In this document: piece by piece, positions 414-23,863 of the stretch
Numbering within the stretch: the stretch's first letter is position 1
Layout of the letters: each line of letters starts with the position of its first letter
Virus record (IMG/VR): IMGVR_UViG_3300006990_000159
Coordinates: 1 to 23,955 of that record
From: a virus
Length of the DNA: 23,955 nt
Strand: one strand, 5' to 3'
The notes under the pieces: model-generated
The model's database searches: none
What the model was told of the DNA's origin: nothing
What the model saw: only the letters and a program-made list of their open reading frames with translations
Made by a program: the position numbers and the translations under genes

Positions 414-445
414 TTTGGAAGTTTGAAAAAACTTTCGTATATTTG
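414..445 (+). promoter_or_regulatory. Promoter P2, Bacteroidota type, for gp32-uvsX-exonuclease
   Basis: TTTG at 414-417 and TATATTTG at 438-445 are separated by 20 bases. This is a full match to the known Bacteroidota primary sigma pattern (-33 TTTG, -7 TAnnTTTG). Transcription should start near 449, giving a leader of about 36 bases before the gp32 ATG. Confidence 0.85.
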
Positions 446-3432: not shown

Positions 3433-3464
3433 TTTGGTAGTTACAATAAAAATTCGTATATTTG
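3433..3464 (+). promoter_or_regulatory. Promoter P3, Bacteroidota type, for gp41 and the nrd block
   Basis: TTTG at 3433-3436 begins immediately after the exonuclease stop, and TATATTTG lies at 3457-3464, with 20 bases between. The helicase ATG is at 3471, only six bases after the box, so a transcript from here would have almost no leader. Confidence 0.85.
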
Positions 3465-5879: not shown

Positions 5880-5903
5880 AATAATAATAAAAAAAAATAA
5901 GTT

Positions 5904-6206
5904 ATGACAGATTTTGATAAATTGATTACAAACGTAATCGGATGGGCAGATGATAAAGGTATCTTAGTAAAAGATAACGCCCCCAAGCAGATGTTAAAAG
6001 TTTTGGAAGAAGTCGGTGAAACTGCCGGAGCTCTCCTTAAAGATGATAAAGCTGAGATAGTAGATGGAATCGGAGATTCTTTCGTTACATTAATTATCTT
6101 ATCAATGCAGTTAGGATTACATCCTTCAGAATGCTTAGAAGCTGCATGGAATGAAATTAAAGATAGAAAAGGGAAAACTCAAAATGGAGTGTTTATAAAA
6201 GAATGA
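5904..6206 (+). CDS. MazG-like NTP pyrophosphohydrolase
   Basis: Small all-alpha NTP pyrophosphohydrolase, expected to hydrolyse a (d)NTP to the monophosphate and pyrophosphate. In 100 residues the Mg-binding pattern is visible: LEEVGE (about 33-38) in the first helix and EIVDGIGDSFV (about 51-61) in the second, the EExxE...ExxD layout of the family. Single-domain length fits phage MazG homologues. It ends four bases into nrdA and starts 24 bases after nrdB, so it is coupled to the reductase genes. Its role may be to adjust nucleotide pools, to remove a nucleotide that competes with a modified base, or to affect host (p)ppGpp signalling; the sequence does not choose among these. Confidence 0.75.
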   Translation: MTDFDKLITNVIGWADDKGILVKDNAPKQMLKVLEEVGETAGALLKDDKAEIVDGIGDSFVTLIILSMQLGLHPSECLEAAWNEIKDRKGKTQNGVFIKE

Positions 6207-7975
6207 AAAACTTTGGAGCTGAATTTGATTGGGAAATAGACGTAGATTTTCCATCTTGGGCAAACACAGAAATCTACGTTAAGACAATATCAAAGGGGTA
6301 TTTATTGGAAGGTGAAAAACCTAAAGATGCTTATTGGAGAGTAGCAACTACAGCTGCTCGAAGATTGGGTAAACCTCAAATGGCAACAAAGTTCTTCGAT
6401 TACATTTGGAAGGGTTGGTTAAACCTAGCAACACCTGTTTTATCAAACACTGGTACTGATAGAGGATTACCAATCAGTTGTTTCGGAATCGATGTAGCTG
6501 ATTCAATCCAAGATATTGGTACTAAGAATTTAGAGATGATGTTACTCGCTAAGCATGGTGGTGGAGTAGGTGTTGGTTTGAATATGATTCGACCAGCAGG
6601 TTCTAATATTACACAAAACGGAACATCCGATGGTGTTGTTCCATTCGCTAAGATTTACGATTCTACTATTCTAGCTACCAATCAAGGTAGTGTACGAAGA
6701 GGGGCAGCATCAGTTAACCTCAACATTGAACATGATGATTTTGATGAGTGGATTGAAATCAGAGAACCTAAAGGTGATGTAAACAGACAATGTTTGAATT
6801 TACATCAATGTGTGGTTGTTGGTGATAAGTTTATGAGAAGGTTAGAAGATGGTGATTCAGAAGCTCGTAGAAAATGGGGTAAAGTACTTCAGAAACGTAA
6901 AGCAACTGGTGAACCATATGTGATGTACAAAGGTAACATCAACAAAGCAAACCCAGATATGTATAAGGATAATGGATTGAAAGTTCATATGACTAACATT
7001 TGTTCTGAGATTACATTACATACAGATGAATCACATTCATTCGTTTGTTGTTTATCTTCACTTAATCTATCAAAGTACGATGAGTGGAAACATACCGATT
7101 TAATCTATACTGCAACTTGGTTCTTAGATGGTATCTTATCAGAGTTCTTACAAAGAGCTAAGAATATGAGAGGATTCGAAAACGCAGTACGTTCAGCAGA
7201 AAAGGGTAGAGCATTAGGATTAGGTGTATTAGGATGGCATACATATTTACAACAAAAAGGTATTCCATTTGATTCACTACCAGCTCAGTTTGAAACTCGT
7301 AGAATCTTTTCACAATTAAAGATTGAATCTGAAAGAGCAAGTAGAGATATGGGTGCGGAATTAGGTGAACCATTATGGTGTAAAGATAGTGGTATGAGAA
7401 ATACTCACCTAAGAGCAGTTGCTCCAACTGTATCCAACTCTAAGTTAGCAGGTAACGTTTCACCAGGTATAGAACCTTGGGCGGCAAACGTATTTACCGA
7501 ACAAACTGCAAAAGGTACTTTCATTAGAAAGAATAGAGAATTAGAAAAAGCACTTAGAAAAGCAGGTATCAATACAAAAGATACTTGGGATAAGATTATG
7601 GCAGATGGTGGTTCAGTACAAGATATCAAAGAATTAGATAATTGGGTATATTGTGATGGTAAACTAACTAAGGTAGATGGTGAAATAGATACTACTAAGT
7701 GTGATAAGGTAAAAGATGTATTTAAAACATTCAAAGAGATTAATCAATTAGAATTGGTTAGACAGGCTGGTGTTAGGCAACAATACATAGACCAATCAGT
7801 TTCACTAAACCTAGCATTCCCATCAGAGGCAACTCCGAAGTGGATGAATACGGTTCATATGGAAGCATGGAAGCAGGGTGTAAAAACATTATATTATACC
7901 AGAACTGAATCAGTTCTTAGGGGAGATATCGCTCAACAAGCTATGGACCCAGATTGTTTAAGTTGTGATGGATAA
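6203..7975 (+). CDS. nrdA: Class I ribonucleotide reductase, large (catalytic) subunit
   Basis: Reduces ribonucleoside diphosphates to deoxy forms together with NrdB. Key residues are present: redox pair C93 (ISCFG) and C282 or C283 (FVCCLSS), active-site N265-x-C267-x-E269 (NICSE), the radical-transfer pair Y564-Y565 (YYTRTES) and a C-terminal CLSC (585-588) that passes electrons from thioredoxin or glutaredoxin. At 590 residues it is much shorter than E. coli NrdA (761): the catalytic C93 corresponds to E. coli C225, so the N-terminal ATP-cone that senses dATP is missing. The enzyme should therefore lack overall dATP feedback inhibition, which suits a phage. It overlaps mazG by four bases and the following CxxC gene by eight. 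Confidence 0.9.
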   Translation: MKNFGAEFDWEIDVDFPSWANTEIYVKTISKGYLLEGEKPKDAYWRVATTAARRLGKPQMATKFFDYIWKGWLNLATPVLSNTGTDRGLPISCFGIDVADSIQDIGTKNLEMMLLAKHGGGVGVGLNMIRPAGSNITQNGTSDGVVPFAKIYDSTILATNQGSVRRGAASVNLNIEHDDFDEWIEIREPKGDVNRQCLNLHQCVVVGDKFMRRLEDGDSEARRKWGKVLQKRKATGEPYVMYKGNINKANPDMYKDNGLKVHMTNICSEITLHTDESHSFVCCLSSLNLSKYDEWKHTDLIYTATWFLDGILSEFLQRAKNMRGFENAVRSAEKGRALGLGVLGWHTYLQQKGIPFDSLPAQFETRRIFSQLKIESERASRDMGAELGEPLWCKDSGMRNTHLRAVAPTVSNSKLAGNVSPGIEPWAANVFTEQTAKGTFIRKNRELEKALRKAGINTKDTWDKIMADGGSVQDIKELDNWVYCDGKLTKVDGEIDTTKCDKVKDVFKTFKEINQLELVRQAGVRQQYIDQSVSLNLAFPSEATPKWMNTVHMEAWKQGVKTLYYTRTESVLRGDIAQQAMDPDCLSCDG

Positions 7976-8318: not shown

Positions 8319-8350
8319 TTTGGATAATTGAAAAAAAAGTTGTATATTAG
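8319..8350 (+). promoter_or_regulatory. Promoter P4, Bacteroidota type, for HTH and mom-like genes
   Basis: TTTGG begins at 8319 and TATATTAG lies at 8343-8350, with 20 bases between the TTTG and TATA boxes. Predicted transcription starts near 8354, about 22 bases before the ATG at 8376. Confidence 0.8.
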
Positions 8351-8375: not shown

Positions 8376-8579
8376 ATGGCATTAAGAGGTGAATCACATC
8401 CACAACATAAATTAACTGAAGAACAAGTTTACACAATACGAAAACTATGGAAAGTAGGGCATCGTAATGTTAGAGTGTTGGCAAGAAACAATGGAGTTTC
8501 ACCTGCTAACATCCGTAGAATAGTTAAGAATGAAACGTGGACACATCTCTTAGTAGGTGATTTCGATAAATATCAGTAA
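8376..8579 (+). CDS. Small helix-turn-helix protein (67 aa)
   Basis: A 67-residue protein with the pattern GESHPQHKLTEEQV..IRKLW (about 5-24) followed by a helix-turn-helix, VLARNNGVSPANIRRIVKNETW (about 33-54). This layout is familiar as the DNA-binding tail of phage HNH and other homing endonucleases, where G..HP.AKLTE..V precedes an HTH, but no HNH nuclease domain is present. It may be a small regulator of the modification genes that follow, or the leftover tail of a lost homing endonuclease. The frame is open back to a TTG at 8328, but that lies inside promoter P4, so ATG 8376 is preferred. Its stop overlaps the next ATG by one base, which implies translational coupling. Confidence 0.6.
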   Translation: MALRGESHPQHKLTEEQVYTIRKLWKVGHRNVRVLARNNGVSPANIRRIVKNETWTHLLVGDFDKYQ

Positions 8580-9337
8580 TGAAGGAAGTAGGGAAGAATT
8601 ATTGTGATACATCAAAATTATCAATAAGAAAGATTTCCAAATCCGTAGCAAAAGATATAGTGATAAAGAATCACTATTCCCATCTATGGACTAAGGTATC
8701 TTACGCTATTGGGTTGTATATTGAAGATGATTCACATCAGTTTTTCAACACTTCAGAAAAACTTATTGGTGTTGCTTGTTATGGAGACCCAATCGGAAGA
8801 TTGAGTGGTCAATCAATTACACCTTTATTAGATAGAACTGAAGTATTAGAATTAGTTAGAGTATTTGTATTTGATGATTATGGTTCAAATATAGAGAGTT
8901 GGTTCTTAGGTAAAACCTTTCAATGGTTAAGAGAGAACGCATCACATATCAAAGGATTGATATCATACTCAGACCCTAAAGAGGGGCACAACGGAACTAT
9001 CTATCAAGCAACGAATTGGATTTATCAAGGTGATAAGTTACGATTCAACGATAGTTGGAGTTTTAAGTTTAGTGAAGATGGGGAATGGCAGCATGGGAGA
9101 ACGATATTTCCATATTATGGTACTAACGACCCAAAGAAAATCCAACAACAGATTGATAAACCATTTTGGATTCGTAAAGAACCTCGTAAACATCGATATG
9201 TTTACATTCTTGCAAAGGGTGGTGAAAGAAGGAAGTTACTTAAAACATTAAAACATCCAACTTTACCATATCCAAAAAATGAAAACGAAATAGAATTAGA
9301 AATTAAAAAATTAGAACCAATTGAAAGAAGAAGGTAA
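8579..9337 (+). CDS. Mom-like DNA modification protein, copy 1
   Basis: Resembles the Mom family, GNAT-fold enzymes named after phage Mu Mom, which converts adenine in DNA to N6-(methylcarbamoyl)adenine and so blocks restriction. In the 252-residue product the family layout is visible: IVIKNHYSH (27-35), KLIGVACYG (61-69), ELVRVFVFDD (91-100), GSNIESWFLGKTFQWL (102-117), then SYSDPKEGH (129-137) and YQATNWIYQG (142-151). Copy 2 aligns without gaps through the first 150 residues at about 54% identity (81 of 150, counted by hand). It starts on an ATG overlapping the HTH gene's stop and ends 17 bases inside copy 2. Family membership is fairly clear; the actual chemical group added, donor and target sequence are unknown. 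Confidence 0.72.
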   Translation: MKEVGKNYCDTSKLSIRKISKSVAKDIVIKNHYSHLWTKVSYAIGLYIEDDSHQFFNTSEKLIGVACYGDPIGRLSGQSITPLLDRTEVLELVRVFVFDDYGSNIESWFLGKTFQWLRENASHIKGLISYSDPKEGHNGTIYQATNWIYQGDKLRFNDSWSFKFSEDGEWQHGRTIFPYYGTNDPKKIQQQIDKPFWIRKEPRKHRYVYILAKGGERRKLLKTLKHPTLPYPKNENEIELEIKKLEPIERRR

Positions 9338-10124
9338 ACATTATTGTGATTCCACTAAAGTTAGTGTAGCACCAATAGCTAAATCAATAGCAAAAGATAT
9401 AATCGTAAAGAAACATTATACCCACGCATGGACATCTTGTCGATACGCATTGGGTGTATATTATCAAACTGATGAAGTTGATGTATTCGGTAATTCTCAG
9501 AAATTAATTGGTGTAGCAATCTATGGGTTTCCAGTCGGAGCAAAAGCACCCACATCAGTATGTGATGGATTAACAAAAGATAATATATTAGAATTAACTC
9601 GCTTATACTTAGATGATGGGTATGGTTCTAATATAGAAAGTTGTGCATTGGGTAAAACATTCCAATGGATTAGAGATAACGATAAAAACATCAAAGTATT
9701 ATTATCATATGCTGATAACGGACAAGGACACGTTGGTGGTATTTACAAAGCAACTAATTGGATATATCAGGGGTTATCAACTGATATAGCACTTATGCCT
9801 AATTGGGGTATCTCACTATCCAAAGACCCGTATGATTGGATTCATAGTAGAACTGTTTATAATCTATGGGGTAGTGGTAATTTAGAACATCTTCGTAGAG
9901 AGATTGGTAAAGAAGGACATACTGAGTTTTGGAGAAGAGAAGAACCACCAAAGCATCGATACATCCAAATTATAGCTCAGAATAAAAAAGAGAAAAAGGA
10001 TTTATATAAAAGGTTAAAACACGAAACTAAACCTTATCCTAAAACAGCATCTGATTACAATACAGATATTGTACACCATACCACCTATGCACCAGAAGAA
10101 TCTAATGAAATAAATTTTTGGTAA
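9321..10124 (+). CDS. Mom-like DNA modification protein, copy 2 (TTG start)
   Basis: A 267-residue paralogue of the preceding gene with the same Mom-type motifs: IIVKKHYTH (27-35), KLIGVAIYG (61-69), ELTRLYLDDG (91-100), GSNIESCALGKTFQWI (102-117), SYADNGQGH (129-137) and YKATNWIYQG (142-151). The ELTRL form here is closer to the family pattern than copy 1's ELVRV. It begins at a TTG 17 bases before copy 1 ends; the start is supported because the N-termini of the two copies align residue for residue (MKEEGKHYCD and MKEVGKNYCD). A weak start inside the upstream gene suggests coupled, lower-level synthesis. After residue 152 the copies diverge, and this one has an extra acidic C-terminal tail ending NEINFW. 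Two diverged copies might recognise different target sequences or form a heterodimer. Confidence 0.72.
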   Translation: MKEEGKHYCDSTKVSVAPIAKSIAKDIIVKKHYTHAWTSCRYALGVYYQTDEVDVFGNSQKLIGVAIYGFPVGAKAPTSVCDGLTKDNILELTRLYLDDGYGSNIESCALGKTFQWIRDNDKNIKVLLSYADNGQGHVGGIYKATNWIYQGLSTDIALMPNWGISLSKDPYDWIHSRTVYNLWGSGNLEHLRREIGKEGHTEFWRREEPPKHRYIQIIAQNKKEKKDLYKRLKHETKPYPKTASDYNTDIVHHTTYAPEESNEINFW

Positions 10125-10128
10125 ATAA

Positions 10129-10160
10129 TTTGGTGGTTATAAATAATTTTTGTATATTAG
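10129..10160 (+). promoter_or_regulatory. Promoter P5, Bacteroidota type, for glycosyltransferase and polymerase
   Basis: TTTGG begins at 10129, four bases after the Mom copy 2 stop, and TATATTAG lies at 10153-10160 with 20 bases between. Predicted start is near 10164, about 20 bases before the ATG. Confidence 0.8.
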
Positions 10161-10183
10161 TAAGTATAAATAAATAATAAAGT

Positions 10184-11527
10184 ATGAGTAAGTTTTTTAC
10201 AGACCCAACTGCATCAAAGGAATATAAGTTTAGATGTTTGATATATCCAAACATCACATTTCAGAAAGATTTTTATAAAGATAGTTTTTATATCATAATG
10301 TCAAATATCCTAAAACATTTGACCAAACTTAGACCTGATATACATTTTACTATATTAACTCCAGAAATAATGCCTGGCTTTCAATATGAAAGTGTTGAAC
10401 AGGTTTTATTCAAATGGCCTACTTATCCAAATGAAATGCGCCAACACTTTGATACATTCGCTATAAAGAAGGTAACTGATTATAAAACAAAAGATTGGGA
10501 TTTTGTGTATAGTTACCTACCCGAACATACTTTACTTTTAGAAAATCACTTTTATAATACAACAAATCAAAGACCTGTATTCTTTGGATATAGTCCATAT
10601 ATTGAAATTCCAAAAACAACAAAGTATGATTCAAGCTTATTGAGAAACCATTATGCTGGGTTGATGTCTATGAACACTTGTGGAGTAACTTCAGAAGCAG
10701 TTAAAGATACAATTATTGAAAATGCTAAATTGTGTTTGCCAGATTCTGATATTGAGAAACTTAAAGATATTATACTAGCAATGCCAAGAGGATGGGATAA
10801 TGTAGAGGGGCCAAGAAAAGAAGCTCAAACAGACCCAAAGATTATTGTGTTTAATCATAGGGCTAACTCATATAAAAGTTATGATTGGTTTTTACTTCAA
10901 ATGGATGAACTTTGGAAGAAACGTAAAGATTTTAAAGTGTGGGTGCCTTTAGCAGATACACAAGATAGAGAATATATCTATAATGATAAATTTGATAGAC
11001 AGGGGTATTTTACCGAACTATCAAAGTGTTGGGTTGGTGTTTGTGGTCAATCACATCATACAGGTTGGGCTAATTCAGCAGCTGATGGTATGGCGGTGGG
11101 TGTTCCATATGTTTTCTATGATGCTGAATATTACTCACTATATAGTGAAGATGCTGGGTTATATTTTAAAACCGATACGGAATTCCAAACTATGATTAAC
11201 AATGTATTGGATGATACGTCTTTAAGAAACGAATATTCAGAGAAGTGTAGAATTTTAGGTGAAAAGAACTCATATGAAGCTATTGTTAAAAAACACTATG
11301 CACCAAACTTTGTTCAAGCAGAATCTAAATTAAAAATGGTTGGTGAAGATGCTGATGGTTATAAGAGAATTGTAGAGTATATAAAAAAGGTAAAAAGTGT
11401 ATCCAAAGCTAATTTATTATCTTATCTAAATTGGGGAAAGGGTATCCCATTTAATATCTACAGAAACAGATTAAGAACACATCCAAATATCAGATTGACT
11501 AAATCTGGATATGAGTGGATTAATTAA
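10184..11527 (+). CDS. GT-B-like glycosyltransferase with C-terminal winged-helix-like domain
   Basis: The 447-residue product looks like a two-lobed GT-B glycosyltransferase. The N-terminal lobe (about 15-200) has strands such as WDFVYSYLP (105-113); the C-terminal lobe (about 218-370) opens with KIIVFNHRANSYKSYDWF and holds CWVGVCGQSHHTGWANSAADGMAVGVPYV (two stretches, 282-291 and 292-310), which resembles the nucleotide-sugar site of the fold. Residues 391-447 form a separate basic unit (SKANLLSYLNWG, then YRNRLRTHPNI) that reads like a winged helix, suggesting DNA binding. It lies 10 bases upstream of the DNA polymerase under one promoter. That context and the possible DNA-binding tail suggest a DNA-base glycosyltransferase, but this is inference, and a protein or surface-glycan target is possible. 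Confidence 0.6.
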   Translation: MSKFFTDPTASKEYKFRCLIYPNITFQKDFYKDSFYIIMSNILKHLTKLRPDIHFTILTPEIMPGFQYESVEQVLFKWPTYPNEMRQHFDTFAIKKVTDYKTKDWDFVYSYLPEHTLLLENHFYNTTNQRPVFFGYSPYIEIPKTTKYDSSLLRNHYAGLMSMNTCGVTSEAVKDTIIENAKLCLPDSDIEKLKDIILAMPRGWDNVEGPRKEAQTDPKIIVFNHRANSYKSYDWFLLQMDELWKKRKDFKVWVPLADTQDREYIYNDKFDRQGYFTELSKCWVGVCGQSHHTGWANSAADGMAVGVPYVFYDAEYYSLYSEDAGLYFKTDTEFQTMINNVLDDTSLRNEYSEKCRILGEKNSYEAIVKKHYAPNFVQAESKLKMVGEDADGYKRIVEYIKKVKSVSKANLLSYLNWGKGIPFNIYRNRLRTHPNIRLTKSGYEWIN

Positions 11528-14054: not shown

Positions 14055-14086
14055 TTTGGATAATTCAAAAAGTTTTTGTATATTTG
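14055..14086 (+). promoter_or_regulatory. Promoter P6, Bacteroidota type, for the clamp and clamp-loader unit
   Basis: TTTG at 14055-14058 begins directly after the polymerase stop, and TATATTTG lies at 14079-14086, with 20 bases between. Predicted start is near 14090, about 27 bases before the clamp ATG. Confidence 0.85.
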
Positions 14087-14816: not shown

Positions 14817-16025
14817 ATGAATTTTTGGGATACAGAGCCGGCTAAACCAGTATTTGATTACGATACTCAGAGAAAAGAGTTAATCGAAAATATGGATTAC
14901 CTTGCAGCAATGACTGTTGAAGAACAAACACTTTACAAAAAGTGGGTTGAGTTGCAAGAACCTAATATGATTAGAGATAAATCTTTGATTTCTGAATTGT
15001 ATGATACACAATGGATGCCGAAAGATATTAATAATTTGGAACAAACTATCAAAGAGATTGAAGAGTTAGAACCATATGTTGAAATCTTAGATGACCCCAA
15101 AGAATCTACTAAGTGGACTTATGTTAGAAAGATGATTCACACTATGGGATTTACCGCTAATCCTGGTCGTAACGTTAAGATTAATGTTAAAGATAGGAAG
15201 AGTGGTAAACTCTTAGGACAGATTTCATTAGCATCCGATGTAACATCAATGGCAGTTAGAGATAACTACATTGGGTGGAGTAAGGATAATAAGTTTAAAG
15301 ATGGAAAACTGAATCATACTACAATAGCATCTACAATTGTATGTACTCAACCATTAGGATATAATTTTTTAGGTGGGAAGTTGGTTGCTATGATGACTAC
15401 TGTTCCTGAAGTTAGAAACCTTTGGAAAGAAAAGTATGGGCAAACTCTAATCGCAGTTGGTACAACATCGTTATATGGAATACATTCTCAGTACAATGGT
15501 ATTCCACATTTCAAAACACTCGGAGAATCCGCTGGTAAAATATCTTTGAAACCTGATGATAAGTTCTATGAACCTTGGCATCAATGGATTAAAGAAAACA
15601 GAGCAGAGTGGTACGAAACTGCTATTACGAATGAAAGAATCCGTAATGGTAAGAGTATGGGTGTAGCAAGTGGGCCTGTGAGTGGTATCAAACAAAAGAT
15701 TCTTGGACAGATATTCAAAGAATGTGGTATCAAACAATCAGAGTATCATCATGGTTTTAAAAGAGGTGTATATCTCGCTATGATGTATGAGAATGGACCT
15801 GAGTATCTTCGTAAGGAGATTGAAGAGGATGAGTTGGTGATGAAAAAGAAGTTTACTGAAGGTGTTGATTATATTAATCGATGGTGGAAGAAGAAGGCTA
15901 TCAAACGATACACTAAACTACATTCAGAAGGTAGATTGAAACCAGAACATCTGTTTTATATAGATGCTATTGGTATGAGTTGGGAACAAATGAAAGCTAA
16001 ATATTTAAAAGAAGTCGGAAGATAA
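14817..16025 (+). CDS. DruA-like (DUF4338) protein
   Basis: The 402-residue product carries the core of the DUF4338 family, best known from DruA of the Druantia anti-phage system. The similarity is concentrated in residues 131-241: KLLGQISLASDV (131-142), VRDNYIGW (147-154), a middle stretch with TIVCTQPLGYNFLGGKL in place of the family's FLILP..V.NLAS, then W..KYG (203-208), a TTSLYG stretch (216-221) and HFKTLGESAGK (231-241). The flanking helical regions are not familiar. Biochemical function of the family is unsettled. No DruE-type helicase or other Druantia gene is nearby; instead it sits between clamp and clamp-loader genes, four bases after gp45 and overlapping gp44 by one base. A replication or DNA-processing role, or counter-defence, is therefore more likely here than a Druantia defence system. 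Confidence 0.65.
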   Translation: MNFWDTEPAKPVFDYDTQRKELIENMDYLAAMTVEEQTLYKKWVELQEPNMIRDKSLISELYDTQWMPKDINNLEQTIKEIEELEPYVEILDDPKESTKWTYVRKMIHTMGFTANPGRNVKINVKDRKSGKLLGQISLASDVTSMAVRDNYIGWSKDNKFKDGKLNHTTIASTIVCTQPLGYNFLGGKLVAMMTTVPEVRNLWKEKYGQTLIAVGTTSLYGIHSQYNGIPHFKTLGESAGKISLKPDDKFYEPWHQWIKENRAEWYETAITNERIRNGKSMGVASGPVSGIKQKILGQIFKECGIKQSEYHHGFKRGVYLAMMYENGPEYLRKEIEEDELVMKKKFTEGVDYINRWWKKKAIKRYTKLHSEGRLKPEHLFYIDAIGMSWEQMKAKYLKEVGR

Positions 16026-18592: not shown

Positions 18593-18611
18593 TTGTTAAA
18601 AATTAACAATT
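18591..18611 (+). terminator. Perfect AT-rich hairpin at the end of the clamp-loader unit
   Basis: AATTGTTAA (18591-18599) and TTAACAATT (18603-18611) form a 9-base stem with a 3-base loop, overlapping the stop codon of the Nmad1-like gene. It sits at a unit boundary 15 bases before P7. There is no good T-run after it and the stem has one G-C pair per arm, so it may be a weak terminator, an mRNA 3' end, or an operator. Confidence 0.3.
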
Positions 18612-18625
18612 TAATAACATTAAAA

Positions 18626-18657
18626 TTTGGTAAATACAGTAATTTTTCGTATATTAG
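18626..18657 (+). promoter_or_regulatory. Promoter P7, Bacteroidota type, for nuclease to GT4 genes
   Basis: TTTGG begins at 18626 and TATATTAG lies at 18650-18657, with 20 bases between. Predicted start is near 18661, about 21 bases before the nuclease ATG. Confidence 0.8.
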
Positions 18658-18681
18658 TACTGTAATAATAGATATAATTGT

Positions 18682-19629
18682 ATGAAAGAATCAAAGATAA
18701 GTAACGTATTTACCTTTGGGGTCAAAGAACCTCAACCCAATGATGTTAAGGTATCATATTCTCAATATACAATGTATGCCAACTGCCCACATCAATGGAA
18801 GTTGAATTATATGGATGGTAATCGTTCATTTGACCCATCCATACATTTGGTATTTGGTACTGCTATGCACGAAGTTCTGCAAGAGTGGTTAGATACATTG
18901 TACAACAACTCTATTGATGAGGCTGCTAAATTGGATTTAGGTAAGATGTTATACGAACATATGGTTACTGAATACAAAAAGATGAGAGAACAGACTGGAG
19001 TAGAATTCAGTAACTCATCTCAGATGGAAGAGTTCTTAGAGGATGGTATCGCTATACTCAATGAGGTTACTAAGAATAGAGTTGATTACTTCAATACCCG
19101 TCATATGAATTTGGTGGCTATTGAATTACCAATATACTCTAAAGCATTAGATTCTCACAATGTATATATGAGAGGATTCTTAGATTTAGTATTCGAAGAT
19201 ACATACGAAAACAAACTACAGATTTGGGATATCAAAACATCTACTAATGGGTGGAACAAATATCAAAAAGCTGATAAAACCAAAACAGCACAATTGGTGT
19301 TGTATAAGAAGTTCCTATCAGAACAATTCGGATATCCATTGGATAGAATCAGTACAAAATATTTTATCGTAAAACGTAGGTTGATGGAAGGTATGATGTT
19401 CGCTCAGAAGAGAGTACAAACATTTGAACCTGCTAGTGGTAAACCTACCTTAAATAAGATTACTAAGAGTTTCGAAGATTTTGTTAGGAACGCATTCAAT
19501 GAGGATGGTTCATACAAAACAGATTCAGAGTTCCCAGCTATGGCAGGTAAGAACAATAAGAATTGTAAGTGGTGTCCATTCAAAAACGATTTTGATAGTT
19601 GTCCCAAAGAAAATAGACATAAAGTATGA
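18682..19629 (+). CDS. PD-(D/E)XK nuclease with 4Fe-4S cluster, Cas4/RecB-like
   Basis: A DNA exonuclease of the RecB/AddB/Cas4 group. In the 315-residue product: SYSQYTMYANCPHQWKLNY (25-43), FGTAMHEVLQEWL (58-70) with catalytic H63, E148 after a helix, GFLDLVF with D168, IWDIKTST with D183 and K185, and Q204 in QLVLYKKF (204-211). Four cysteines, C35, C295, C298 and C307 (CKWC and SC), are placed as in AddB and Cas4, where they bind an iron-sulphur cluster joining the two ends. It heads the P7 unit and overlaps the transglycosylase gene by four bases. Likely roles are host DNA degradation or recombination end-processing. No CRISPR array or cas gene is present, so a Cas4 acquisition role is not supported. 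Confidence 0.82.
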   Translation: MKESKISNVFTFGVKEPQPNDVKVSYSQYTMYANCPHQWKLNYMDGNRSFDPSIHLVFGTAMHEVLQEWLDTLYNNSIDEAAKLDLGKMLYEHMVTEYKKMREQTGVEFSNSSQMEEFLEDGIAILNEVTKNRVDYFNTRHMNLVAIELPIYSKALDSHNVYMRGFLDLVFEDTYENKLQIWDIKTSTNGWNKYQKADKTKTAQLVLYKKFLSEQFGYPLDRISTKYFIVKRRLMEGMMFAQKRVQTFEPASGKPTLNKITKSFEDFVRNAFNEDGSYKTDSEFPAMAGKNNKNCKWCPFKNDFDSCPKENRHKV

Positions 19630-20551: not shown

Positions 20552-21952
20552 ATGAGTAAAGAAAATAAGAAACCTCTTATACTTCTGTTATCAGATGATT
20601 TAAGGTTACATAGTGGTATCGCTACTATGTCTAAGGAGATGGTACTCCATACAGCACATAAATATGATTGGTTACAAGTTGGAGCAGCGGTGAAACATCC
20701 TGATGAGGGTAAGTTTTTCGATGTATCTGATGATGTAAATGAAGAATTGGGAATAGACCACGCATCTGTTAGAATCATTCCCCAAAGTGGATATGGTAAT
20801 CAAGACTTAATTAGACAGATTCTAATTAATGAAGATGTGAAAGCTATATTACACTTTACAGACCCACGTTTTTGGGGATGGTTGTATGCTATGGAAGATG
20901 AGATTCGTAAGCATGTTCCAATATTATATCTAAACATTTGGGATGATTTGCCAGACCCGATGTGGAACGCTCCATTCTATGGAAGTTGTGATTTACTTAT
21001 GAGTATCTCAAAACAAACATATGGTATCAATAAGAGGGTGATGGAGAAGTATGGTGAACACTATGATGATTGGCAGATGAAATATGTACCACATGGTGTA
21101 TCAGAGAAGTTCAAACCAATTTTCAATACACTTGATGGTAAGGAAAAGATTCAGAGAATGAGACAAAGACTAGGGATTCCTACTTATAAAGATTTTATTC
21201 TACTATGGAATAATCGTAACATTAGAAGAAAAAGTCCTGGTGATGTAATATTGGCATACAAAGAATTTTGTGATACTCTAACAAAAGATGAAGCTAAGAA
21301 TTGTTTATTATTATTACATACACAACCTGTAGATGAAAACGGAACTAATCTTGTAGAAGTGATTGAAAATGTTTGTCCCGATTACGATATACAATTTACC
21401 AATAATCAGTTCAGTACAAAAGAATTAAATACATTGTATAACTTAGCAGATGTAAATCTAAATATTGCATCCAACGAAGGTTTTGGATTGGCGAGTTGTG
21501 AGGCAGTAAATGCAGGAACTCCAATAATTGTTAATGTTACAGGTGGATTACAAGACCAATGTAACTTTACTATTGATGGTAAATATATAACTGCTGATGA
21601 ATACATTGAGATTGGTTCATTACATAATAGAAAAAAGTTACCACAAAATTTAAGTTGGGGTAGTTGGGTAAATCCTGTATGGCCATCTAATCGTTCATTA
21701 CAAGGTTCACCACCAACACCATACATTTTCGATGATAGATGTTCTTATGAGGATGTGGCAAAAGCAATTAGACAGTGGTATGATACATCACCAGATAGAA
21801 GGATTGAATGTGGATTGGAAGGTTCGGAGTGGATGAAATCAAAAGAAGCTGGTATGAGTGCTAAGAATATGGGTGAGAGATATATCGATGCAATTGATGG
21901 GGTATTTAAGAATTGGAAACCAAAAACAGAATTAGTATTATGGAAAGTATAA
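20552..21952 (+). CDS. GT4-family glycosyltransferase A
   Basis: Transfers a sugar from a nucleotide donor to an unknown acceptor. The 466-residue product has the GT-B layout: an N-terminal lobe starting KPLILLLSDDLRLHSGIATMSKEM (two parts, 7-30), then a C-terminal lobe from FILLWNNRNIRRKSPGDVI (215-233) to the donor-site signature NEGFGLASCEAVNAGTP (308-324), with E309 and E317 forming the EX7E motif. It is one of two similar genes in tandem; the SG..... N-terminal turn recurs in the next protein. It follows a 31-base AT-rich gap and overlaps the next gene by 13 bases. Acceptors could be DNA, virion proteins or host surface glycans; nothing in the sequence decides. Confidence 0.8.
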   Translation: MSKENKKPLILLLSDDLRLHSGIATMSKEMVLHTAHKYDWLQVGAAVKHPDEGKFFDVSDDVNEELGIDHASVRIIPQSGYGNQDLIRQILINEDVKAILHFTDPRFWGWLYAMEDEIRKHVPILYLNIWDDLPDPMWNAPFYGSCDLLMSISKQTYGINKRVMEKYGEHYDDWQMKYVPHGVSEKFKPIFNTLDGKEKIQRMRQRLGIPTYKDFILLWNNRNIRRKSPGDVILAYKEFCDTLTKDEAKNCLLLLHTQPVDENGTNLVEVIENVCPDYDIQFTNNQFSTKELNTLYNLADVNLNIASNEGFGLASCEAVNAGTPIIVNVTGGLQDQCNFTIDGKYITADEYIEIGSLHNRKKLPQNLSWGSWVNPVWPSNRSLQGSPPTPYIFDDRCSYEDVAKAIRQWYDTSPDRRIECGLEGSEWMKSKEAGMSAKNMGERYIDAIDGVFKNWKPKTELVLWKV

Positions 21953-23271
21953 AGAAAACGTGTATAGTTAGTTGTCCAATATCCACTAGAAGTGGGTATG
22001 GTTCAAGAAGTAGAGATTTTGTAAGAGCTCTGATATTAGCAAGACCAGATTGGGATATTCAGATTCTATCTCAGAGATGGGGTCAGACTCCAATGGATGC
22101 TCTTAAAGTTGGTAAAGATGATGATTTATTAAATAGAATACTAATTCCACAAGGTAATGAGGCAAAACCAAACGTATGGGTTCAGATTACAGTTCCAAAC
22201 GAATTTCAACCTGTAGGTGAATATAACATTGGTGTAACTGCTGGTGTTGAAACAACTGTAATGCCACCTGAGTGTTTAGAGGGTATGAATCGTATGGATA
22301 AAGTTCTTATCTCATCTAATTTTGGAAAACAATGTGCTGAAAATACTGTATTTGATAAAAAGGATGAATCAACTAAAAAAGTAGTGGGTACTTTAAGATG
22401 TGAAAAACCTGTTGAAGTATTATTTGAAGGTTATGATACCAAAATATATGATAATAAAGCTCCATCAGAACCAAGAATTAATGATACATTATCTAAGATT
22501 AGTGAATCATTTTGTTTCTTATTCGTAGGGCATTGGTTAAAAGGTGATTTTGAGCAAGATAGAAAAAATGTAAGTGGATTGATTTGGACATTCTTACAAG
22601 CGTTCAAAGGTAAGAAGAACCTACCAGCATTGATTCTAAAGACGAGTGCGGGTGGTACATCATTACCAGATAGAGATAGAATTAGAAGAATTATCAAAGA
22701 TATTAGAAATAGATTAGATGGCAGATTACCAAACATATATCTATTACATTCTGATTTAACGGATAAAGAAATGAATGCACTTTACAATCACCCAAAGGTG
22801 AAAGCGCATGTTTCATTTACGAGAGGTGAGGGATTTGGTAGACCTTTATTGGAAGCAACAATTAGTGGTAAACCAATGGTAGTATCAGCATGGAGTGGTC
22901 ATATGGATTTCTTAAATCCTGATTATGTTTCTTGTATTACAGGTAAGATGGATGACGTACATAAAACTGCAGCTGATAAGTTCTTATTAAAAGAATCACA
23001 ATGGTTTACAATTGATTATTCAGTAGCTGGTGGTACTATGAAAGATATTTATAAGAACTATAAACCATACTTAGAGAAATCACGTAAACATAGACAGTAC
23101 ACAAAAGAAAGATTTACATTTGAAAAAATGGTAGAGTTGTTAGATACTTATTTAAAAGATGCAGATAGTAAACCCCAAACAGTTGGGCTATCACTACCTA
23201 AACTTAAAAAAGTAAATAAGAACGTTGAACCACCAAAGGTGAGTTTACCTAAACTAAAGAAAGTTAAATAG
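21940..23271 (+). CDS. GT4-family glycosyltransferase B with basic repeat tail
   Basis: A second GT-B enzyme, 443 residues from ATG 21940. The N-terminal lobe starts KKTCIVSCPISTRSGYGSRSRD (5-26 in two parts), and the C-terminal lobe has FLFVGHWLKGDFEQDRKNV (193-211) and TRGEGFGRPLLEATISGKP (294-312), with E297 and E305 forming the EX7E motif. The frame is open back to 21913, but the start 27 bases later fits better: it leaves only a 13-base overlap with GT A and begins just before the first strand. The C-terminal tail contains SLPKLKKV twice (418-425 and 435-442), written with different codons. The stop shares one base with the GTG start of the next gene. Confidence 0.8.
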   Translation: MESIKKTCIVSCPISTRSGYGSRSRDFVRALILARPDWDIQILSQRWGQTPMDALKVGKDDDLLNRILIPQGNEAKPNVWVQITVPNEFQPVGEYNIGVTAGVETTVMPPECLEGMNRMDKVLISSNFGKQCAENTVFDKKDESTKKVVGTLRCEKPVEVLFEGYDTKIYDNKAPSEPRINDTLSKISESFCFLFVGHWLKGDFEQDRKNVSGLIWTFLQAFKGKKNLPALILKTSAGGTSLPDRDRIRRIIKDIRNRLDGRLPNIYLLHSDLTDKEMNALYNHPKVKAHVSFTRGEGFGRPLLEATISGKPMVVSAWSGHMDFLNPDYVSCITGKMDDVHKTAADKFLLKESQWFTIDYSVAGGTMKDIYKNYKPYLEKSRKHRQYTKERFTFEKMVELLDTYLKDADSKPQTVGLSLPKLKKVNKNVEPPKVSLPKLKKVK

Positions 23272-23831: not shown

Positions 23832-23863
23832 TTTGTTTTTTAGAACATTTTTTTGTATATTAG
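23832..23863 (+). promoter_or_regulatory. Promoter P8, Bacteroidota type, for the last gene
   Basis: TTTG at 23832-23835 and TATATTAG at 23856-23863 are separated by 20 bases. The upstream box lacks the second G found at most other sites. Predicted start is near 23867, about 15 bases before the ATG. Confidence 0.75.

Follow-up and report, generated by a model that had tools for sequence, protein, structure and literature searches.

A tandem pair of Mom-family genes behind a helix-turn-helix gene in the replication core of T4-like phages of probable Bacteroidota hosts

Organization of the hth-momA-momB locus

The viral DNA fragment IMGVR_UViG_3300006990_000159 of IMG/VR, analyzed here over its entire 23,955 bases (the window), carries two adjoining genes for Mom-family (GNAT-type) DNA modification enzymes within a T4-like replication core. 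These genes, momA (8579–9337, ATG start, 252 aa) and momB (9321–10124, TTG start, 267 aa), follow a small gene, hth (8376–8579, 67 aa from the ATG at 8376), for a predicted helix-turn-helix (HTH) protein; all three are on the plus strand. The hth stop overlaps the momA start as TAATG, and momB begins within the 3′ end of momA, the two overlapping by 17 bases. The assignment of hth draws on weak HTH matches in Pfam, synteny and dN/dS. Its product resembles the HTH modules of homing endonucleases (HEase of PADLOC, 2e-4; phrog_517/phrog_59, 5e-5), and the gene lies 5′ of mom in nearly all relatives, directly adjoining it in most, with a dN/dS of ~0.01–0.16 that indicates conservation. No zinc finger was matched in the hth product by Pfam and PHROG profile scans, and the locus does not have the upstream zinc-finger Com by which the com-mom type is recognized.

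The promoter of the unit, TTTG-N20-TATATTAG (8319–8350, plus strand), is of Bacteroidota type and aligns with other sites in the window; a longer reading of hth from the TTG at 8328 would cross it. With the spacing exactly fixed, TTTG-N20-TATATTWG has seven exact matches in the window (414–445, 3433–3464, 8319–8350, 10129–10160, 14055–14086, 18626–18657 and 23832–23863), against 0.02 expected from shuffles. The copies precede ssb, dnaB, hth, the glycosyltransferase gene GT1, clamp, 18682 and the right-hand window end. The same element is found 5′ of hth in many relatives and is widespread among them. A motif scan of the window placed none of these promoters between hth, momA and momB, in agreement with an initial annotation, made from the sequence alone, that had put hth in one unit with both Mom genes. 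The second promoter, TTTG-N20-TATATTAG at 10129–10160 (plus strand), starts the GT1-polB unit; none was detected before polB, which bears out the further claim that GT1 shares a unit with the DNA polymerase. Since the motif fits the Bacteroidota promoter consensus, TTTG/TANNTTTG, and Flavobacterium phages are among the nearest isolate replication cores, the host is probably a member of the Bacteroidota. The T4 late-promoter sequence TATAAATA was also considered as the window promoter and showed no enrichment, and scans of the window for sigma-70 promoters and terminators gave hits no more often than chance.

Both proteins belong to the Mom family

MomA and MomB are 46% identical over 250 aa (E = 5e-79). 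An earlier hand count of 81 identical residues among the 150 N-terminal positions, gap-free, is exact, provided that the TTG start of MomB is read as Met. Both proteins match the Pfam Mom family PF25680 (E = 6e-45 for MomA and 5e-45 for MomB; 153.7 and 154 bits against a curated cut-off of 27.1), covering positions 2–202 of the 202 in the domain, and both match phrog_1384, 'Mom-like DNA modification protein'. Single-sequence search gave E-values of 7e-10 for MomA and 4e-6 for MomB against the experimental structure of the Mu enzyme, 8bv8 ('methylcarbamoylase mom'). Two independent profile libraries, Pfam and PHROG, and the 8bv8 match therefore agree with the initial annotation of two Mom-type proteins. 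That annotation had named profile searches placing the pair outside the Mom/GNAT family as grounds for abandoning it; the searches were run, and both proteins fall inside PF25680.

An alignment of 10 members, including Mu, HGTV-1, Aeromonas AS-zj and Polaribacter P12002L, defined the family-invariant columns: H32, Y33, G64, E91, L92, R94, N104, S129, D132, G139, Y142, A144, N146 and G151. All are intact in both MomA and MomB. In phage Mu, Mom shields phage DNA from restriction (PMC6483171) and its product is N6-methylcarbamoyladenine (PMC8281217). On balance, we favor the reading that hth-momA-momB is an anti-restriction adenine-modification cassette of T4-like Bacteroidota phages, with two Mom enzymes that differ in target choice, MomB being the core and MomA an add-on.

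Distribution of the Mom pair

The two Mom proteins and a family alignment served as queries for scans of viral contigs, and the best 80 loci of each scan were taken, so that all census counts are lower bounds. At least 136 non-redundant Mom loci were found, at least 69 of them A+B pairs, of which 52 have flanks and 17 are truncated where the contig stops. Complete loci with flanks and momB alone number at least 14. Among the loci listed, momA stands alone with flanks only in L163 and L164; these two branch at the base of the A clade, and two further Mom genes are present on the contig of L164. MomA is thus a paralogue that is retained in the core clade only together with MomB, the core copy. 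Long contigs of 252,603, 245,436 and 213,601 bp have two Mom genes each, and one of 238,219 bp has momB only. The pair with its preceding hth is conserved across many uncultivated aquatic phages. Among isolate phages, neither a tandem nor a second Mom was seen in the collection searched, where 299 Mom-holding records each have Mom in one place. Nor was such an arrangement found in the literature searched, and the earlier statement that tandem Mom paralogues are undescribed holds to that extent. A methylase did not emerge as a general partner, with N6/N4 methylase matches over the cut-off in only 2 of 20 long relatives.

Other arrangements were also observed. Triple tandem Mom genes occur in L153 (4992–7252), L154 and L156, and in L111 (6735–8792). 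Other phages, L173 (3331–4095, 6306–6935), L176 and L184, have Mom between clamp and clamp loader, and phages of this type carry a second short, deeply diverged Mom ~2 kb downstream of the first.

Suggested translational coupling of momA and momB

In 40 of 47 overlapping tandems the MomB start is TTG, within a conserved ATTAGAACCAATTGAAAG stretch, while it is ATG in 43 of the 44 loci where momA does not overlap momB; these counts omit 7 further rows with misplaced starts. Because the weak TTG start sits inside the upstream gene, the sequences suggest that translation of momA and momB is coupled and that MomB synthesis is possibly reduced.

Coupled synthesis, as suggested by the 17-base overlap and the TTG start, would also suit a heterodimer, in which one subunit catalyzes or recognizes DNA for the other and which replaces the homodimer of Mu. 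Two chains, treated as a homodimer, make up the solved entry of Mu Mom, and MomA was not seen without MomB in the core clade. We regard this arrangement as unlikely, since MomB alone is common and intact, all invariant residues are present in both copies and, in about a third of the A+B loci, small genes and often a promoter of its own separate momB from momA. Protein distances argue in the same direction. Correlations among hth, momA and momB are 0.53–0.57, versus 0.11–0.34 between these genes and the adjacent nrd genes; the A–B value of 0.57 is far under the 0.87 of the subunit pair nrdA–nrdB. These values point to a cassette and are not evidence of an obligate complex.

Divergence of MomA and MomB

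A tree from a quick search splits MomA (34 rows, SH-aLRT 84) from MomB (41 rows, SH-aLRT 95), with several single-Mom lineages falling nearest MomB. Both clades recur together across deeply diverged phages, and momA, momB and hth are under purifying selection, with dN/dS mostly 0.07–0.15. At 61 positions A and B share the same residue with conservation of at least 90% in each group, and 12 positions are fixed differently. The latter include positions 40 and 41, just after the HY motif (V40/S41 in A, C40/R41 in B), position 131 of the SY[S/A]D motif (serine in A, alanine in B) and the 157–162 loop. A common core with differing neighboring residues is consistent with two active enzymes that have different substrate contacts.

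The cassette also appears to be mobile. In L014, momA is 92% identical to that of the window where the flanks are 75–82%, and L020 has momA at 87% and momB at 80%, yet dnaB at 43%. Judged from these identities, Mom alleles move between phages and hth-momA-momB behaves as an exchangeable module. In L049, otherwise ~96% identical to the window phage, momA is cleanly missing. As the junction falls inside the conserved first codons, recombination between the 5′ ends of the two genes can remove or introduce momA.

Recurrent clean loss of momA, as in L049, together with one family and one conserved core, might be taken to mean that the second Mom supplies dose only and that the two enzymes are redundant. 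This seems improbable given that the copies are 54% divergent with each under strong purifying selection, that distinct residues are fixed in A and B and that the pair persists through deep divergence; copies kept for dosage normally remain similar or decay.

DruA and its linkage to Mom

The window also carries, unremarked in the initial annotation of the Mom locus, a homologue of DruA (druA, 14817–16025, plus strand; PF14236, DUF4338), with a Pfam E-value of 2e-21 (76.8 bits against a cut-off of 27) and a PADLOC DruA match of 2e-16. DUF4338 has already been called GNAT (PMC10853773), and DruA-like proteins are described in Synechococcus phages (PMC12774648). A GNAT fold is also indicated by Foldseek with the model of the window protein: the top 50 PDB matches are almost all GNAT or acyltransferase structures, including acyl-homoserine-lactone synthases, at a weak E of ~0.01. 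A PDB sequence search with the DruA profile gave nothing significant. Of 34 long relatives, 29 have the gene, 28 of them over the cut-off, and it is kept at 62–82% identity even where polB is only 50–55% identical.

In one clade, druA lies directly 3′ of momB (L097, 8833–10056; L102, L105, L106, L107 and L112); this clade appears largely freshwater, judged from inferred habitat. Small DruA versions lie between hth and mom in L162 (4270–5001) and L195 (4265–5029), with a homologous segment in L108. In L184, a small DruA (5882–6490) overlaps a Mom gene and matches PF14236 (2e-5) and, weakly, PF25680 (0.013), both under the curated cut-offs. Profile comparison of small DruA with Mom gave P = 2.4e-5 and outscored every one of 60 column shuffles and 60 block shuffles. 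The score comes mainly from one shared block, G-x-x-Y-x-A-x-N-W-x-x-x-G, and the top block shuffle reached 36.2 versus 42.0. Window-type DruA showed no significance against Mom in hhalign, and the link runs only via the small versions. No description of a Mom-DruA linkage was found in the literature searched.

DruA is a candidate functional partner of Mom. More tentatively, these loci may be paired GNAT cassettes for DNA hypermodification, in which genes that overlap or adjoin encode two to three Mom paralogues, or Mom plus a small DruA, every enzyme having its own adenine modification or context. On that view, DruA would be either a DNA acyltransferase related to Mom or a reader of modified DNA. 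Three to four Mom/DruA-type paralogues are present in related phages. That number, and the many substrates of GNAT-fold proteins, could be read as pointing to a substrate of another kind (RNA, nucleotides or host DNA) for one or both Mom enzymes. Such a substrate is improbable, as the characterized function of Mom is on phage DNA and the genes are located in the replication core.

Proposed function of the cassette

For the anti-restriction cassette that we favor, the following mechanism is envisaged. A dedicated promoter would drive one hth-momA-momB message in large T4-like Bacteroidota phages. The small HTH protein, in a position comparable to that of Mu Com, may regulate the unit or target the enzymes. 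Family membership predicts that MomA and MomB modify adenines of phage DNA with an acyl-type group, which is most likely the N6-methylcarbamoyl of Mu, and that the acylated adenines block host restriction enzymes. MomB would be the core enzyme, working alone in many phages. MomA, an old paralogue probably coupled to MomB in translation, would have another target context (or acyl group) and so widen the range of blocked sites.

Several points weigh against this proposal. Support for the A clade is only moderate and some branches are long. The census counts depend on the queries, and the loci are relatives of those queries rather than a random sample. Modification of adenine by MomA and MomB is a prediction. 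Base or group may be other than in Mu, since most Mom proteins outside Mu have seen no laboratory work, and what sets A and B apart could be the acyl donor, the timing or a partner instead of sequence context.

To our knowledge, only Mu Mom has so far been studied in depth. The old, conserved pair offers a natural comparison for site or donor selection within the family, and it makes enzymes of this family, from both marine and freshwater phages, available for trial against restriction. The linkage of Mom and DruA likewise provides a concrete hypothesis for the role of the Druantia protein DruA.

The neighboring glycosyltransferase

Downstream of momB, GT1 (10184–11527, plus strand) encodes a GT4-like glycosyltransferase. 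An AlphaFold2 model (pLDDT 77) and Foldseek (E = 3e-13 to GT4 enzymes) gave a GT-B fold, as initially annotated; a PDB sequence search with the GT1 profile gave nothing significant. The nearest folds are the ordinary retaining GT4 enzymes MshA, PimA and BshA, with the phage HY126 glycosyltransferase lower down. The winged-helix-like tail that had been noted is modeled, as a prediction, in the C-terminal 60 residues (~residues 390–447) as helix-helix-helix-strand-strand. It is seen only in the closest kin of the window and in L109 and L158, and most relatives have a glycosyltransferase without it.

GT4-like glycosyltransferases sit in the mom-polB interval of most relatives, and some relatives have none beside Mom. 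The common enzyme of that slot is 25–34% identical to GT1, where the flanking genes are 75–97% identical. Other genes often lie between momB and the glycosyltransferase, among them DGQHR-motif proteins, ParB-like proteins (by eye) and a DNA methylase; Pfam scans of the proteins in this interval gave no confident family except the DNA methylase in L109. Large variable genes of the interval are found in L030 (9715–11232), L051 (8952–10472), L012 (4717–6693), L072 (8908–10668) and L070 (10510–11784); by eye, those that have a DGQHR motif are DndB/ParB-like. Such genes might be partners of Mom in restriction or regulation. Two more GT4-like glycosyltransferases, GT2 and GT3, lie in tandem at window positions 20552–23271 (phrog_2170).

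GT1, with its own promoter and hypervariable slot, does not appear to be co-inherited with Mom; it looks like a separate, swappable gene and probably lies outside the Mom cassette. The initial annotation had called it DNA-linked and suggested a further sugar step; that step found no support here, and nothing connected the enzyme with DNA. We know of no obvious sugar acceptor in the methylcarbamoyl group. A full hypermodification island, with GT1 glycosylating the Mom product or another base, is very improbable despite the position of GT1 beside momB, its place in the polB unit, its tail and the recurrence of GT4-like enzymes in this interval, and GT1 was rejected as a sugar arm on the evidence of promoter, variability or absence of the slot, intervening genes, tail and fold.

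Comparison with known systems

Mom proteins fused to REase domains are known from jumbo phages (PMC7824862). Those phages are also large; the nuclease fusion there contrasts with a paralogous pair without fusion here. The DruA of the window belongs to the same Pfam family, with a GNAT fold, as Druantia DruA/DUF4338, as the GNAT domain fused to DndF (PMC10853773) and as the DruA-like proteins of Synechococcus phages (PMC12774648). Unlike in Druantia, no Druantia helicase was noticed beside druA in the window, where the gene is a phage core gene linked to Mom.

The closest isolate replication core is that of Flavobacterium phage immuto, with a similar ssb-recA-exo-DnaB-nrd order. Immuto (L121) has no Mom at that place and instead carries a QueC-type 7-deazaguanine gene (18607–19488), a possible swap of modification strategy. 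The closest isolate Mom, 47% identical to MomA, is that of Polaribacter phage P12002L, also a Bacteroidota phage, and has CR at positions 40–41 like MomB. P12002L differs from the window in having a single Mom beside a DNA methyltransferase gene and a different genome type (48.7 kb).

Phage Mu com-mom (PDB 8bv8; PF25680, phrog_1384) has the same invariant residues as MomA and MomB. In both Mu and the window, a gene for a small nucleic-acid-binding protein lies directly 5′ of mom and overlaps it. The upstream protein is of HTH type here and a zinc-finger Com in Mu, and, unlike the single Mom of Mu, two or three paralogous Mom proteins are encoded here, within a T4-like replication core.

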